Shown piece by piece: positions 1 through 6,572 of a DNA stretch of 64,000 nucleotides. Location: NCBI GenBank assembly GCA_017640605.1, contig JAEPQH010000004.1, forward strand, positions 1 to 64,000, written 5' to 3'. The notes under the pieces are model-generated. The model had not been told where the DNA came from and searched no databases. It was given only the letters and a program-made list of their open reading frames with translations. Numbering within the stretch: the first letter of the stretch is position 1; each line of letters starts with the position of its first letter. The DNA comes from Balneolaceae bacterium. Lineage in GTDB: Bacteria > Bacteroidota > Rhodothermia > Balneolales > Balneolaceae. Made by a program: the position numbers and the translations under genes.

Positions 1-867
1 AATTAGATTACGCAATAAGTCACGGTACTTAGTACCACTGCTGTGATTTGAACTCTTTTCGAGATGAATTAGATTCTCTGCTGACAAACGTACTTCTTAA
101 TAGCTGCTGTGATTTGAACTCTTTTCGAGATGAATTAGATTTGGAAGCTGCAGATCTTGCCGTGCTTCTTCGCTGTGATTTGAACTCTTTTCGAGATGAA
201 TTAGATTAATGGTTGGAGCGATGACCACCGCCAAGATGCTGTGATTTGAACTCTTTTCGAGATGAATTAGATTATCGGTCAACCAGGCAGCAAAGGATTA
301 GACGCTGTGATTTGAACTCTTTTCGAGATGAATTAGATTGTATAAAAACCTATTCAACAGAATAAGCTTGCTGTGATTTGAACTCTTTTCGAGATGAATT
401 AGATTACGATACGAGATAAGCTGTTTACTAATGTGGCTGTGATTTGAACTCTTTTCGAGATGAATTAGATTAATGTACTGGGTACACTAATCCCGAACGT
501 TGCTGTGATTTGAACTCTTTTCGAGATGAATTAGATTCTATAGCGAAACAAGTAATAGAAGGTGAGCGCTGTGATTTGAACTCTTTTCGAGATGAATTAG
601 ATTAAACGATCGGTATAAGGCAAGTCTCCTGGAGCTGTGATTTGAACTCTTTTCGAGATGAATTAGATTAGTGATGTGCTGCACCACCATCCCAATTTCG
701 CTGTGATTTGAACTCTTTTCGAGATGAATTAGATTGCTCAACTTGCCCGATTGTTAATCCGACAAGCTGTGATTTGAACTCTTTTCGAGATGAATTAGAT
801 TAATTTGTAGTAAACCAGACTCGGGTGCAGTGCTGTGATTTGAACTCTTTTCGAGATGAATTAGATT
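1..867 (+). CRISPR. Type II-C CRISPR array (left end outside window)
   Basis: Thirteen complete 36-bp repeats begin at 40, 106, 172, 238, 304, 370, 436, 502, 568, 634, 700, 766 and 832; bases 1-9 are the last nine bases of another. They look identical on reading. The thirteen spacers (first 10-39, last 802-831) are all 30 bp, giving an exact 66-bp period. The repeat starts GCTGTGATTTG and ends GAATTAGATT. Its sense orientation is set by the tracrRNA at 5281, whose anti-repeat is complementary to the plus-strand repeat, so crRNAs should be read left to right, convergent with the cas operon. The last repeat is not degenerate, so the leader end cannot be decided; any leader would lie left of base 1. 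Confidence 0.99.
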
Positions 868-924: not shown

Positions 925-1239
925 CTAAAACATTTGAAGTTGTTTGGGCGCATTTTCTGTAGGTTTTCTTCGCCTTCCGCGAAAAATTTTCATATTTCCG
1001 AATTGCTTATCGGTGATCCTTATTATGCGAACTTCTCCATCCGGTGGCAATATTTTTTTTACTCTTCGCTCATGTACATCGGCATTTTCTCGGCTCGGGC
1101 AATGGCGCATATATACAGAGAGTTGCATCATCGTAAATCCATCTTTTTTAATTCGCTTTCTAAAATCATTCGCTTCTTTTCTTGCCGCTTTAGTATCTAC
1201 CGGTAAATCGAACATTACAACCATCCACATTGTTTTCAT
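925..1239 (-). CDS. cas2: CRISPR-associated endonuclease Cas2
   Basis: Cas2 forms the spacer-integration complex with Cas1. The protein begins near the family pattern: a first beta strand followed by FDLP (the conserved Asp), then a helix rich in Lys/Arg and the MMQLSVYMR strand. The ATG at 1239 is chosen because a GGGGG ribosome-binding stretch lies just upstream and because it gives 104 residues, normal for Cas2; a longer frame back to 1320 would overlap cas1 and add a tail absent from the family. The C-terminus carries a basic RGRRRK patch. It is the last gene of the cas9-cas1-cas2 unit, and the missing cas4 and csn2 point to subtype II-C. Confidence 0.96.
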   Translation of the reverse strand: MKTMWMVVMFDLPVDTKAARKEANDFRKRIKKDGFTMMQLSVYMRHCPSRENADVHERRVKKILPPDGEVRIIRITDKQFGNMKIFRGRRRKPTENAPKQLQMF

Positions 1240-1271
1240 TCCCCCGAAAATGTAACTCTTCGCCCCCATTA

Positions 1272-2165
1272 CTACACCAATTTTGGAAATGCAATTTGTT
1301 GACGTTCTTTCAAGTAACAACTTACCAATGAACTTGCCATTATGTGTAAACTTTCCATTAGTGGATATTTCATATCATCCACCAAAACGTCGGCAGTTAA
1401 TAATTCCAACAATGGCTTCTTCGTCTCTTTAGTCACTTTAATTTCTAGCGATTGGCTTATCACATATTGTTCATAGACTATGGAGTCTACTAAAGGTCTG
1501 TATGGTTCCATCAAATCATCTGCTAGGCAATAAGGATTGTACTGATTATGATGATGTAAACCCATAGAAGGGTGTAAACCAGCAGCAGTAATACTTCTTG
1601 CTACAGCCGCTCGAATAATCGCATAACCATAATTTAGCAATGCATTTAGATCATTTAGCTTATAATTCCTTTTGAATTCAGAATCTCTAAAAAGCGATTT
1701 CCAATATTTCTTAGCAGCCCTTGCTTCGATATTTGTAGTATCACCCGATTTTACTTTTTTCATTAGGTGCTTTAAACCATCATCGTTGCCATGTTTTCGC
1801 ACTAGTGTTTCTGACTGAACTTTAATTTTTTCTCGCACCACTTGCTGCCAAAGTCGTTTTTTTAATGGTTTTTTTACTTCAGCTTGCACTTGTAAACGCG
1901 CTTGGTGCAATTGGTTATCCTCAAATGGTAGTAGTAAACCCTCTGGCATATGTTGCCGATTACAAAACAAAACCGCAACATTATTTTCCAATAATTCATA
2001 CATCAATTGATGGGTATAACTGATTGCTGGATTAGAAAGAACCAGTAACCCCATATCTTCAACAGGAATCGAATGAGTTTTTCCATTTTTTTTTAGCAAC
2101 ATCTGTTTATGCTTAATGGATAAATGAATTGGCCCACTCGATATTTCAATAGTTCGTTTAATCAT
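1272..2165 (-). CDS. cas1: CRISPR-associated endonuclease Cas1 (type II)
   Basis: Cas1 is the integrase that inserts new spacers. Counting from the MIKRTIEISSG start, the metal-binding triad is visible as Glu147 (in IEARAAKKYW), His198 (in GLHPS) and Asp216 (in CLADD). The length of 297 residues is usual for type II Cas1. The start at 2165 gives the family N-terminus and an 8-bp overlap with the cas9 stop (ATGATTAA), which suggests translational coupling; an ATG 21 bp further upstream would add seven unrelated residues. The stop is followed after 32 bp by the cas2 start. Confidence 0.97.
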   Translation of the reverse strand: MIKRTIEISSGPIHLSIKHKQMLLKKNGKTHSIPVEDMGLLVLSNPAISYTHQLMYELLENNVAVLFCNRQHMPEGLLLPFEDNQLHQARLQVQAEVKKPLKKRLWQQVVREKIKVQSETLVRKHGNDDGLKHLMKKVKSGDTTNIEARAAKKYWKSLFRDSEFKRNYKLNDLNALLNYGYAIIRAAVARSITAAGLHPSMGLHHHNQYNPYCLADDLMEPYRPLVDSIVYEQYVISQSLEIKVTKETKKPLLELLTADVLVDDMKYPLMESLHIMASSLVSCYLKERQQIAFPKLV

Positions 2166-5100
2166 TTGCAGGGAAGATCTCTCCAATTGGAGATATCTTT
2201 ATTTTTGATGCTTTTAATGTGCTAGGCATTTTCCTGTAAACACCTGGATCAAATGCCCCTTTTAAAGCTACTTCGCTTTTTCTAAAAGTAATCTCCCCTT
2301 TACTATTTATCTTCTGAACTCTATAAATCTTTTCATCCTCATGATTTATAATCATATCATTTATCGAAAGAGTAAATTTAAAGGTATGATCATGTGCCCG
2401 AAATGTTTTATCAATTATAGGCTCTTCATCCATTGCTCTACGAGCTGCTTCCATTGCAGGTACCACAAATCCAACTTGTTTGGCTTCACCAGTCTTATCT
2501 AAAGTCTCATAAATAGCTATATGATGGTTATTTCCATAAAGTGCATGTTTAAACTCATTTCCATCGTCATCTGAAAATGAATGCATGATTTCCGGACTTT
2601 TCTCCATGAGTAGCCGAACCTTTCGAATCGGCACTCTCGCTTTTTCAGAAATAATAAACGGGGGATCTGCTTCTAAACTTTTTATGGCATTAGCTTGTGA
2701 AAGCCCAGCATCTACTCTTTTCTGAACCGTCTCATTCACTATCTGCCTAATACCTCTGTCTCTAATTAATTTCAACTCTTTTGCTGATAGTGCATGTATA
2801 GGTTTGCGAACTACCATCATAACTTTATTCTTAGGTGCTTTCTCTTTAGTTAACCCATAGAAAGTTTCTTCATGAAATGCACCAGAAATTTTTCTTTTTA
2901 CTCGATGTGATACAGTGATATCATTTACCGATCGTTCAACGTCTTTTCTAAAACTCGGCCACGGATGACTGAGCCAAATTCTTCCATCCATTCTTTTTTT
3001 CAACTCAGCATATTGTGCTTTTCCAGTTTCTTCTAAGGTTTTCCATTCATCTTCGGTTAGCTTTTTATTTTCATCACTCATTCGTTTCAACATCGAACGA
3101 GAGGTTAAGGCAACAACAATAGCATCAACCGCATGGTGGCGATGATCATCACGACTTTTCATCTCCTCATTCTCCGGATTTAAAACACTATTTAACCCCC
3201 ACACATGTCGAAGTAGTGATGTTGTTTGTCCCTTTACTACTTCCACATCTTTACATGCAAGTTGCTTTAAATACGAACTCGCTTCTTTGCTGATGTAACG
3301 TGTGTCGTTTAATTGTCGACTTATGAAGCTGGATTGATCAACCGATTTTTGAATAAATTTCTTTCTTTTGTTCCAGGGGAGTTCTCGAATCTGTTGTAGT
3401 AAATCGTCCTCTTTAATTAGCCCTGCCTGCACACACTCCCATGGAGTCCTATTTCCTTTTTTACGATTGAAATCGGCGTCGCATAATGTCTTATTTGCAA
3501 AAGAATCGTCTAATGATCTGCTGAATGGTATAATATGTTCAATTTGAAACTCACCGAAATTGAATGATTCTGCGGGAATAGATCTATTGGTATAAGGACA
3601 TGTTCTATTGCATTCATTCCAAAGGTTATACCATAAAATATCTGAATAAGTTGGTTCTTGACATTCGAATGGCGCTTTTTTTAAAGCTTCACGTGCTTTT
3701 TGATTTCTCTTCTCAAGGTCACGCATTTTTTTAGTCATCTTTTGGCGACGATCATAACCAGCTTTAATATCTCGTGTTAGCTCAACTCGAATAATATCCG
3801 GCATTCCATACACTCTGATAATTCCATTGATTACCTTTCGAAGCTCAATGAGTGCATGATACACTACCGAGTTTTTTATTTCTGGAGGCATAGGCAGCTT
3901 GTTTAGATTACCTTGCTTTTTTTCGAAGAGGTCGTATCCTGCCTCCTTTATTGCTGTGCTTTCTTCTTTACCTTCTCTTAGTAAAGGAAGTAGTTTTTTT
4001 ATCGCCTTTTCAGAAAAATTACCATAATCACTCTCTAAACGTAAATGGCTTAGAGTCTTTGCTTGCTCATCACTTCTTCCCCATTCATTTTTAGCTTTTT
4101 CATATACTTTTTGCGGATCATCAAAATGGATTAAAACATAGACAATATAATCCTGCAATTCTCTTTCGAGTGTAAACCAATCGTCGCCAAATGCTTTAGG
4201 TTTCGATAACCTATGATTAGTAGTATTTCCTCTAAGGTTCTTACGGTCTCCTCTTTCTAGATTAAATGTAACATTCGAATTTGCAATCACATTATTTTTA
4301 ATCAACACAGTTTTTAACGCACTAAATGTTGCATCAGAACGCTTGTTTAAAAATGCAAACAACTTCTCTTTATCTTCTTGTTTTAAAGTAATGTGCAATC
4401 CATTTTCGTCAGCAAGACTGAGATTATTAAGTTCTTTTCTAATTCGAAATTCTTGAAAAAGTAAATGTGCCTTTGGAATTCGTTTCTTGTTTTTCTCTAA
4501 TGGACACTTGCCAATCAGATGAGCTTGGCTTTTCATTTTCCTTTGAAAAAATATCGTATCAAACAGTTCATTTTTTAATTCTTCTGTTAAAACTGTTGGA
4601 TGATGCTTTTTCTGCGCCTCCCATAGAAACTTAAATTCTGAAATGAACATGTCACGATGGGTGTAATTATTTCGAATCCTCCAATCATCATCATTAGGTG
4701 TTTTACTTTCATCATGATGATTTCCAGAAATTTTGAAGCAGTACTCACCATAGGTTCTTGCGTCGTATTGCTTCATTAATTCATTAATCTTTTTTATTCC
4801 TTGGCTTACAGCTCCATCCTTATCTTCACCATCTTTTCGATTACTCTTATATCCTCGATGCTGATTTAAGTGATATAATGCTCGTCCAAATTCAGCAAGA
4901 CTTACTTTATTATCTAATGCACTTGCTCGAATTTGATATGGATCTAGCGAAATCCACTTTTCTGAATCTTCCCTTTTTGGCGCAAGATCATTTTTAAATA
5001 ATAGATTGTACAATTTTTGCTTTCGTCTAGACCTTCTATCTCTTTGCCTTCTTACAGACCTTTTAGTTCCTCGATCAGATTTTGCAGATTCACCAGGTGC

Positions 5101-5235
5101 AGCTAGTGCTCTTTCGCTATTTGATTGAAATATTCTTACACCGCTTTTTAAGATTTGTCCACCCTCATCGAATTGTTCAATTAAAGACCAACCAATCGAT
5201 GCAACACCTAAATCAAGACCTAATATCTTAGTCAT
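2158..5235 (-). CDS. cas9: CRISPR-associated endonuclease Cas9, compact II-C type
   Basis: This is the RNA-guided DNA nuclease of the locus, 1,025 residues, in the short class typical of subtype II-C. Seen in order: RuvC-I with Asp8 (GLDLGVASIGW), an Arg-rich bridge helix at about 55-75, a recognition lobe, RuvC-II with Glu485 (VELTRD), an HNH domain with His567 (IEHIIPFSRS) and the following N-rich FNRKKGNRTPWE, and RuvC-III with HHAVD at 700-704. All catalytic residues are present, so it should cut both strands. The C-terminal ~250 residues should read the PAM, which cannot be predicted here. GGGG stands four bases before the ATG. The gene is divergent from the tracrRNA. Confidence 0.98.
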   Translation of the reverse strand: MTKILGLDLGVASIGWSLIEQFDEGGQILKSGVRIFQSNSERALAAPGESAKSDRGTKRSVRRQRDRRSRRKQKLYNLLFKNDLAPKREDSEKWISLDPYQIRASALDNKVSLAEFGRALYHLNQHRGYKSNRKDGEDKDGAVSQGIKKINELMKQYDARTYGEYCFKISGNHHDESKTPNDDDWRIRNNYTHRDMFISEFKFLWEAQKKHHPTVLTEELKNELFDTIFFQRKMKSQAHLIGKCPLEKNKKRIPKAHLLFQEFRIRKELNNLSLADENGLHITLKQEDKEKLFAFLNKRSDATFSALKTVLIKNNVIANSNVTFNLERGDRKNLRGNTTNHRLSKPKAFGDDWFTLERELQDYIVYVLIHFDDPQKVYEKAKNEWGRSDEQAKTLSHLRLESDYGNFSEKAIKKLLPLLREGKEESTAIKEAGYDLFEKKQGNLNKLPMPPEIKNSVVYHALIELRKVINGIIRVYGMPDIIRVELTRDIKAGYDRRQKMTKKMRDLEKRNQKAREALKKAPFECQEPTYSDILWYNLWNECNRTCPYTNRSIPAESFNFGEFQIEHIIPFSRSLDDSFANKTLCDADFNRKKGNRTPWECVQAGLIKEDDLLQQIRELPWNKRKKFIQKSVDQSSFISRQLNDTRYISKEASSYLKQLACKDVEVVKGQTTSLLRHVWGLNSVLNPENEEMKSRDDHRHHAVDAIVVALTSRSMLKRMSDENKKLTEDEWKTLEETGKAQYAELKKRMDGRIWLSHPWPSFRKDVERSVNDITVSHRVKRKISGAFHEETFYGLTKEKAPKNKVMMVVRKPIHALSAKELKLIRDRGIRQIVNETVQKRVDAGLSQANAIKSLEADPPFIISEKARVPIRKVRLLMEKSPEIMHSFSDDDGNEFKHALYGNNHHIAIYETLDKTGEAKQVGFVVPAMEAARRAMDEEPIIDKTFRAHDHTFKFTLSINDMIINHEDEKIYRVQKINSKGEITFRKSEVALKGAFDPGVYRKMPSTLKASKIKISPIGEIFPAND

Positions 5236-5245
5236 TTTCCCCGAA

Positions 5246-5276
5246 TTTGATTTTTAATTTAAATGCAATACCTTTG
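5246..5276 (+). promoter_or_regulatory. tracrRNA promoter (Bacteroidota type)
   Basis: TTTG (5246-5249) and TACCTTTG (5269-5276) match the Bacteroidota -33/-7 consensus TTTG-N19-21-TAnnTTTG with 19 bp between them. The predicted start, a few bases after 5276, falls almost exactly on the first base of the anti-repeat at 5281. The promoter sits in the short gap upstream of cas9 and points away from it. Confidence 0.75.
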
Positions 5277-5280
5277 AGTA

Positions 5281-5382
5281 ATTCATCTCGAAAAGAGTCT
5301 TTTCACATCAAAGATGTCATTAAGACTCTGCCGGCTCTGCTCAAACGAGTATCCTTATACCCCGCTTCTGTGGGGTTTTTTA
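5281..5382 (+). ncRNA. tracrRNA with terminator
   Basis: Bases 5281-5309 are complementary to the CRISPR repeat: ATTCATCTCGAAAAGAGT pairs without a break to the 3' half of the repeat, then a short mismatched bulge (CTTT against TTTGA), then TCACA pairs again next to the spacer side. This is the usual shape of a type II repeat:anti-repeat duplex. Small hairpins follow (ACATC-AAA-GATGT, GTC-ATTAA-GAC), and the transcript ends at a CCCC-GCTTCTG-GGGG stem followed by six T at 5359-5380. The predicted length is about 100 nt. Confidence 0.9.
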
Positions 5383-5483
5383 TTTATAGAGGGAAAACTA
5401 TTCAAAAAGAGGAAAATGTCAAACCAAATATACACTCAAAGTGTTAATTCTTATAAAGCTTAGTTGAAGAACAGATTTTTAGT

Positions 5484-6572
5484 TTACTCCTCTCCTTTAT
5501 ACTCAATCTGATTCCCAAGCAAATACCCATAGGGTTTTAGCTCGTCGATTTCAGTAAATATCACTCGAAGAATTCCGATGAGCGGCACAAATAAAATCAT
5601 CCCTGAAATACCCCAAATCTCGCCACCGATAATTAATGCCAACATTGCCATAAACGGGTTGATAGCGACTTTTGAGCCTACAATCCTAGGCGAGATGAAG
5701 TTTCCTTCCAAAAATTGAACAGTACCGAACACTGCCAACACAAAAACAGGTGTCCACAGATTTTCGCCTAACAGCAGCGCAAACAGTAATGGCGGAAGTG
5801 CTCCAATGATGATCCCGATATATGGAATAATCGCCATCAACGAGGCAAATACCCCAAAGAAAATGGCGTGCTCAAGTCCTACTATCATTAACCCTGTTGT
5901 GTTTAGAATAGCTAGGATTCCAATTACCGTAAGTAAGCCAACCAGGTAATTTTGAGTAACATCCTGAACATTGTCGAGCACTTCATCGATTTTAGAAACC
6001 CCTTCTTTACGTTCGAATAATTTTCGGAAGAATGTTTGATACATTTCTTTGTAGTACAGCATGAAAAACACAAAAATGGGCAAGAGCGACATTAACGTAA
6101 AAGTGCTGGTGGTAGCTCCAAGTATGGAACTTACGTAACTTCCACTTCGATCTATCAAATTGCTAAGACCTTGTTCCAGATAATCGGTGCGTTGTTCTTC
6201 CGATAAACCTACCGTTTCCTCTAAAAAGCGGATTCCATCTGCCGTAACATCTTTAAGGCGTTCAGTCACTTCCGGTACTCGTTCAGCAAACTGCACAAAT
6301 TGCGCAGAGATTAAAGTGATTACCCCCGCAAACACTATAAGCACCATCAACATAGTAATGATAATGCTGAATGCACGACCTAACTTCCAACTTTCTAACT
6401 TGTCGACAATCGGGTTCAGCAACATCGACAAGAAAGCGGCGAAGGCTAATGGCATCAATATAAATTTGCCGTAACTGAGAATTACAAACAGCAACGATAA
6501 GCCGGCTAATGTTACCGATGCTTTTAGCCAGAATGGATATTGTTTGTTTGATTTTACCTGATGATGTTTCAT
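5484..6572 (-). CDS. AI-2E family transporter (PerM-like)
   Basis: This is an inner-membrane protein of 362 residues of the AI-2E/PerM family, whose members are exporters or Na+/H+ antiporters of various substrates; the name does not prove autoinducer transport. Two N-terminal membrane segments are followed by a soluble stretch with many charged residues (about 90-155), then further hydrophobic segments. The family signature near the end is clear: a long hydrophobic run with NPFMAMLALIIGGEIWG and a final ILFVPLIGILRVI segment. Its start overlaps the stop of the upstream DUF4153 gene by four bases (ATGA), so the two are probably translated together. Confidence 0.9.
   Translation of the reverse strand: MKHHQVKSNKQYPFWLKASVTLAGLSLLFVILSYGKFILMPLAFAAFLSMLLNPIVDKLESWKLGRAFSIIITMLMVLIVFAGVITLISAQFVQFAERVPEVTERLKDVTADGIRFLEETVGLSEEQRTDYLEQGLSNLIDRSGSYVSSILGATTSTFTLMSLLPIFVFFMLYYKEMYQTFFRKLFERKEGVSKIDEVLDNVQDVTQNYLVGLLTVIGILAILNTTGLMIVGLEHAIFFGVFASLMAIIPYIGIIIGALPPLLFALLLGENLWTPVFVLAVFGTVQFLEGNFISPRIVGSKVAINPFMAMLALIIGGEIWGISGMILFVPLIGILRVIFTEIDELKPYGYLLGNQIEYKGEE

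Follow-up and report, generated by a model that had tools for sequence, protein, structure and literature searches.

Promoter-like elements in the repeats of a Balneolaceae type II-C CRISPR array and their relation to the Bacteroidota sigma-factor code

A type II-C CRISPR array at the end of a Balneolaceae contig raises the question of where its crRNAs begin, upstream of the array or within its repeats. Repeat-internal promoters are textbook for this subtype (PMC12080349, PMC3656092). In Campylobacter jejuni the repeats end in GGTAAAAT, an extended -10 element of the sigma70 type, and the crRNAs start at spacer position five (PMC3656092). The primary sigma factor promoters of the Bacteroidota consist of TTTG at -33 and TAnnTTTG at -7 (PMC7366714, PMC9723704). 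An earlier note, made from the letters of the sequence, had proposed that every repeat of the array carries a promoter of the latter kind. We present an analysis of this proposal in the locus itself, in its relatives across the phylum and in a small outgroup.

The window, i.e. the whole stretch of 64,000 bp that was analysed, begins at a contig end within the array. The other half lies on a second contig, C17, whose exact overlap of 113 bases with the window includes unique spacers, and the whole array comprises approximately 31 repeats. The features of the locus are as follows:

1..9, plus strand: 3' end (AATTAGATT) of a further repeat, truncated by the contig end
40..867, plus strand: CRISPR array, 13 identical 36-nt repeats and 12 spacers of about 30 nt, continuing leftward on contig C17
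868..924, plus strand: leader or integration side, separating the last repeat from the stop codon of cas2
925..1320, minus strand: cas2 ORF (TIGR01573)
1272..2186, minus strand: cas1, type II, NMENI type (TIGR03639)
2158..5235, minus strand: cas9, 1025 aa, short II-C type (TIGR01865)
5246..5276, plus strand: tracrRNA promoter, TTTG-N19-TACCTTTG, with the same layout as the element in the repeats
5281..5383, plus strand: tracrRNA, with its predicted start at 5281, anti-repeat at 5281-5313 and terminator hairpin at 5360-5383

The full repeats start at 40, 106 and so on to 832 with a period of 66, and all 13 read GCTGTGATTTGAACTCTTTTCGAGATGAATTAGATT. As is typical of type II-C, cas9, cas1 and cas2 are present without csn2 or cas4, the matches to TIGR01865, TIGR03639 and TIGR01573 all exceeding the curated cut-offs, and the anti-repeat matches the repeat in its transcribed orientation (duplex of -32.7 kcal/mol) with a terminator downstream. 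The tracrRNA is encoded on the plus strand and the repeat is its pairing partner, so that the crRNA strand is also the plus strand, running towards cas2 like those of other II-C loci. Growth of II-C arrays occurs at the last repeat (PMC12080349). The closest named relative of the Cas9, 74% identical, comes from a Balneola metagenome assembly. The next gene (5484-6572) encodes a transporter-like membrane protein, and C17 carries the opposite end of the array.

Within the repeats the following elements are found:

47..50 in the first full repeat, plus strand: -33-like TTTG, repeat bases 8-11; then every 66 bp at 113, 179, 245, 311, 377, 443, 509, 575, 641, 707, 773 and 839
70..75 in the first full repeat, plus strand: -7-like core TAGATT, repeat bases 31-36; then every 66 bp at 136, 202, 268, 334, 400, 466, 532, 598, 664, 730, 796 and 862
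136..143, plus strand: the sole full TAGATTTG in the window's array, where the spacer after repeat 106-141 starts with TG

The gap between TTTG and TAGATT is exactly 19 bp in 13/13 repeats. The earlier note had described this arrangement, the same spacing in the tracrRNA promoter and the full box at 136-143, and all three are present. The elements lie within the repeat, on the crRNA strand, and end near the spacer, as would those of a repeat-internal promoter. The likeness to the promoters of the phylum extends to the TTTG, the spacing of 19 and the TAnnTT core, which every repeat possesses; the repeats differ in leaving the terminal TG to the spacer, where it is usually absent, so that the full TAnnTTTG is found in 1/13. 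The -33 element itself is not conserved in the rnpB and ssrA promoters of the Balneolaceae, which in turn have a yG before the box that the window repeat lacks. The pattern TTTG-N19-TAnnTT occurs 17 times in the window (7.5 expected), 13 of the 17 being the same repeat, and the full form with TTTG twice (0.65 expected). Shuffling the repeat produces TTTG-N19-TAnnTT in 3.0% of cases when bases 1-11 are kept and in 0.14% when the whole repeat is shuffled, and the looser TTG-N17-21-TAnnTT appears in 5.6% of shuffles of bases 12-36. Since 13 identical copies represent one event, and one which arises in 3% of shuffles, the array by itself proves little, and the motif is at best suggestive on this array alone.

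Several hundred Bacteroidota genomes were searched for Cas9 loci, and arrays were taken from approximately 100 of the loci, resulting in 77 unique repeats which form 29 clusters and represent 28 taxonomic families; 300 dinucleotide shuffles of the repeats from base 12 to the end served as a control. TTG-N19-[TG]AnnTT was found in 14.8 of the 29 clusters versus 1.8 in the shuffles, none of the 300 reaching 14.8, and on the reverse strand in none of the 29. Counted by family, the values are 14.5/28 and 2.0; the repeats are related by descent, which limits the weight of all these counts. The spacing has a sharp peak at N19 (14.8 clusters, with 3.0 at N18, 1.8 at N20 and 4.0 at N21), and the 7.4 clusters at N12 reflect the same box paired with the second TTG of GTTGTGATTTG.

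There are two main registers, one with the box at 24-31 and TTG at 2-4, the other with the box at 31-36 and TTG at 9-11. The 19 bp are kept in both, and the repeat start, GTTGTGATTTG, has two TTGs seven bases apart. The first register belongs mostly to long-Cas9 loci, and its box lies entirely within the repeat (e.g. GTATCTTTG, GTATTTTTG, GTACCTTAG); the second is represented by TAGATT in the Balneolaceae and by TACATT in four other families. Three loci of one genus (L060, L063, L064) have the box at 21-28, reading TAGATTTG, TAATTTTG and TAGTTTTG, which differ only at the two free positions. GATATT, in which the T of TAnnTT is missing, forms the end of Flavobacterium-type repeats, of some other 36-nt repeats and of those in two families from the order to which the window belongs. 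Taken over the 77 repeats, the signal suggests that the putative repeat promoter follows the phylum's own sigma-factor code. A broader reading, which we advance tentatively and at slightly less than even odds, is that the II-C repeats of the Bacteroidota have re-tuned a built-in crRNA promoter to the sigma factor of the phylum, and that this promoter slides between at least two registers at 19 bp, the two TTGs of the repeat start permitting it.

The outgroup is small: other phyla are represented by seven II-C repeats, all from plasmids. Their bases 31-36 read TATAAT (Subdoligranulum, Sphingobium), TACAAT (Ilyobacter, Azospirillum) or, in the remainder, TAGACT, TAGGTT and TATGCT. TAnAAT at this position is thus found in 4/7 of them versus 0/29 of the Bacteroidota repeats of 36-37 nt (Fisher p = 0.0006), and TTG-N19-[TG]AnnTT in 0/7 versus 36/77 (p = 0.018). 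The box thus has a common place across phyla, and whether A or T stands at its fifth base tends to go with the sigma type of the host. TTG at 2-4, as part of GTTG at the repeat start, is also common to repeats from outside the Bacteroidota and therefore has another reason to exist.

The tracrRNA provides a comparison within the same loci. In a congener (G001) TTTG-N19-TAAATTTG stands at the same place before the tracrRNA, the layout TTTG-N19-TAnnTTTG being kept while the intervening bases have changed. In the 60 bp before the anti-repeat of 59 plausible tracrRNA loci, TAnnTTTG was found in 24 (3.4 expected) and TTG-N17-21-TAnnTTTG in 14 (0.2 expected). Calibration against other host promoters was less rewarding. 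In the window's own genome TTG-N17-21-TAnnTTTG is not enriched (373 occurrences versus 417 of the reversed pattern), and TAnnTTTG upstream of 217 genes is weakly so (36 forward, 32 reverse, 20 shuffled). As this gene-level signal is too weak for calibration, 34 regions upstream of rnpB and ssrA in the Balneolaceae were used, with the sites picked by TAnnTT so that only the flanking bases are informative. These promoters have CG-TAtnTT as their box and conserve neither TTG at -33 nor the terminal TG; this stable-RNA box (L202-L261) departs from the textbook Bacteroidota consensus. Under a model built on the 34 promoters the repeat box is weak, ranking only within the top 2-7% of random positions in the genome, and the window's tracrRNA box is in the top 2.7%; the calibrating promoters score far higher. 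We infer that boxes without a preceding CG, such as those of the window's tracrRNA and repeats, may lean on the TTTG at -33.

The crRNAs of the window array probably start mainly from the repeats, as far as can be judged from sequence comparison; we are less confident of the exact promoter elements. Confidence is limited chiefly by the common ancestry of the repeats, the size of the outgroup and the weak calibration. In the main competing reading, a promoter ahead of the first repeat drives a single long pre-crRNA, which RNase III and the tracrRNA then process as in type II-A; the repeat motif would be incidental. A 36-nt repeat and a strong tracrRNA duplex are compatible with such cutting, and the window genome has one TATATTTG (C17:1298-1291) some 32 bp ahead of its decayed first repeat, but this is not retained in the congener, which has TTATTTATG. 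Ahead of the arrays, of which 64 were examined, TAnnTTTG is at chance level (3/64 within 60 bp with 2.3 expected; 7 within 150 bp with 5.8 expected), and neither yGTAnnTT nor TTG-N17-21-TAnnTTTG is enriched in these 60-150 bp, whereas enrichment is strong beside the tracrRNA of the same loci. Since a standard promoter often precedes the tracrRNA and none recurs upstream of the arrays, the repeats are the remaining place. A study of Riemerella, also of the Bacteroidota, has reported its II-C repeats to be promoterless (PMC5006608), a claim on which transcription from the repeats, if correct, would bear; it relied, however, on a predictor for eukaryotic promoters. In Campylobacter, moreover, the II-C arrays do start in their repeats (PMC3656092), and overall we consider the long pre-crRNA unlikely, with perhaps one chance in several of being correct.

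Two further explanations are less probable still. TTTG and TAGATT could be kept for other reasons, such as recognition of the repeat end by Cas1-Cas2, contacts of Cas9 with a bulge in the repeat or pairing with the tracrRNA, and resemble a promoter by coincidence. That shuffles of the window repeat give the pattern 3-5% of the time is consistent with this, as are the occurrence of GTTG at repeat starts outside the phylum and the TACATT group (e.g. L053, L054, L056), whose repeat end does pair with the tracrRNA. In the window, on the other hand, if the tracrRNA starts at 5281 as assumed, repeat bases 8-10 and 31-36 are unpaired, i.e. most of TTTG and the entire box. These two segments, TTT and TAGATT, are the main ones outside the duplex, and pairing therefore does not explain them. 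Recognition of repeat ends by the integrase would not place boxes at 21-28, 24-31, 26-33 and 31-36. The box also varies by phylum as the sigma factors predict (TATAAT/TACAAT versus TACATT/TAGATT), and we regard this explanation as improbable. Slightly more doubtful is the idea, put forward in the earlier note, that the spacer completes the -7 box, in which case spacers starting with TG would give strong promoters and spacer sequence would tune the array. The consensus TAnnTTTG does include the TG (PMC7366714, PMC9723704), and one spacer of the window yields the full box. Among 692 spacers, however, TG starts are not above chance in any of the three groups whose repeats end in [TG]AnnTT: 6/158 after TAGATT (10.7 expected), 6/117 after TACATT (8.8 expected) and 23/417 after GATATT (27.3 expected). 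With TG starts at or below chance there is no selection for box-completing spacers, and the one at 136-143 is a chance occurrence; the terminal TG is likewise unconserved in the 34 stable-RNA promoters of the family, and the candidate was rejected. The phylum-wide comparison thus backs the core of the earlier proposal, a Bacteroidota -33/-7 promoter in each II-C repeat, whereas the box is weak beside the promoters of the family and its completion by spacers fails.

If the crRNAs do start from the repeats, the repeat of this array would double as a promoter. The primary sigma factor would read TTTG (8-11) and the TAGATT core (31-36), the last two bases of the box being free to vary, and RNA polymerase would initiate about seven bases into the next spacer. 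From the location of the box at -12 to -5 relative to the start (PMC9723704) the following position is predicted:

82, plus strand: putative crRNA start at spacer base 7; likewise 148, 214 and so on every 66 bp

Each spacer would then give rise to a short transcript in which a guide of about 24 nt is followed by the next repeat, the handle that would pair with the tracrRNA; RNase III may trim the 3' side. In the 24-31 register the start would fall on repeat base 36. The system would resemble those of C. jejuni and Neisseria meningitidis, which also have cas9, cas1 and cas2 only, a 36-nt repeat with the box in its final bases and a start a few bases into the spacer; it differs from that of C. 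jejuni in having TAGATT with TTTG 19 bp upstream in place of GGTAAAAT.

The idea of a repeat promoter in the Bacteroidota, presented as new in the earlier note, had already been proposed in 2021 and 2023. For the II-C array of Flavobacterium columnare a repeat-internal TTG 33 bp before the spacer was proposed as the -33 element, and eight reads support transcription towards the leader (PMC8092290); in the available part of that report only the TTG is named, without a -7 box, and the Flavobacterium-type repeats surveyed here end in GATATT, not TAnnTT. For the II-C system of F. psychrophilum (Fp2Cas9) a TTG 35 bp before the spacer was proposed and RNA-seq shows the array to be transcribed (PMC10309648); the part available to us invokes TAnnTTTG for cas9 only and gives neither a -7 box nor mapped start sites for the repeats. 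New here are the -7 box, the spacing, the two registers and the phylum-wide statistics, and no description of the box, the N19 rule or the registers was found in the open literature. If the reading is correct, the repeat itself provides for the expression of each guide, in line with the sigma code of the host, which would explain how Bacteroidota II-C arrays can do without a leader promoter. The register would determine whether a crRNA starts in the repeat tail or inside the spacer, a testable rule for start positions. Cas9 with its tracrRNA, the integrase and the host sigma factor would jointly shape the repeat. This could limit the transfer of arrays between phyla, and a host whose promoter code differs may express them poorly unless they are supplied with a promoter.

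Several minor observations were made on the arrays. At the leader-distal end, the first repeat has often lost its 5' half to decay or replacement, with the 3' 20-30 bases intact and often a sharp junction (L014, at C17 1224-1259; L013, L015-L017 and many other Bacteroidota arrays), while almost every array has an intact last repeat. This agrees with the published silencing of extraneous crRNA (PMC12080349). TAnnTT is retained in the decayed first repeats of 5/5 Balneolaceae arrays and TTG is often lost; this natural deletion map was not counted as proof, as decay from the outside in would look alike. The common 46-nt repeats (L067, L081, L154, L164 and relatives) contain TTCTTTG and [GA]ATATTT[GA] at bases 22-29 and 32-39 with no clean in-register TAnnTT, and a decayed extra repeat of L164 retains only GACGATATTTGTTACAAC. 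Comparison of the array with phage records gave no match. The spacer at 670-699 is self-targeting: it matches the organism's own chromosome (C27:84046-84075) in 29/30 bases, with the mismatch at spacer base 13, and the target lies within a gene which reads like an M42-type aminopeptidase.
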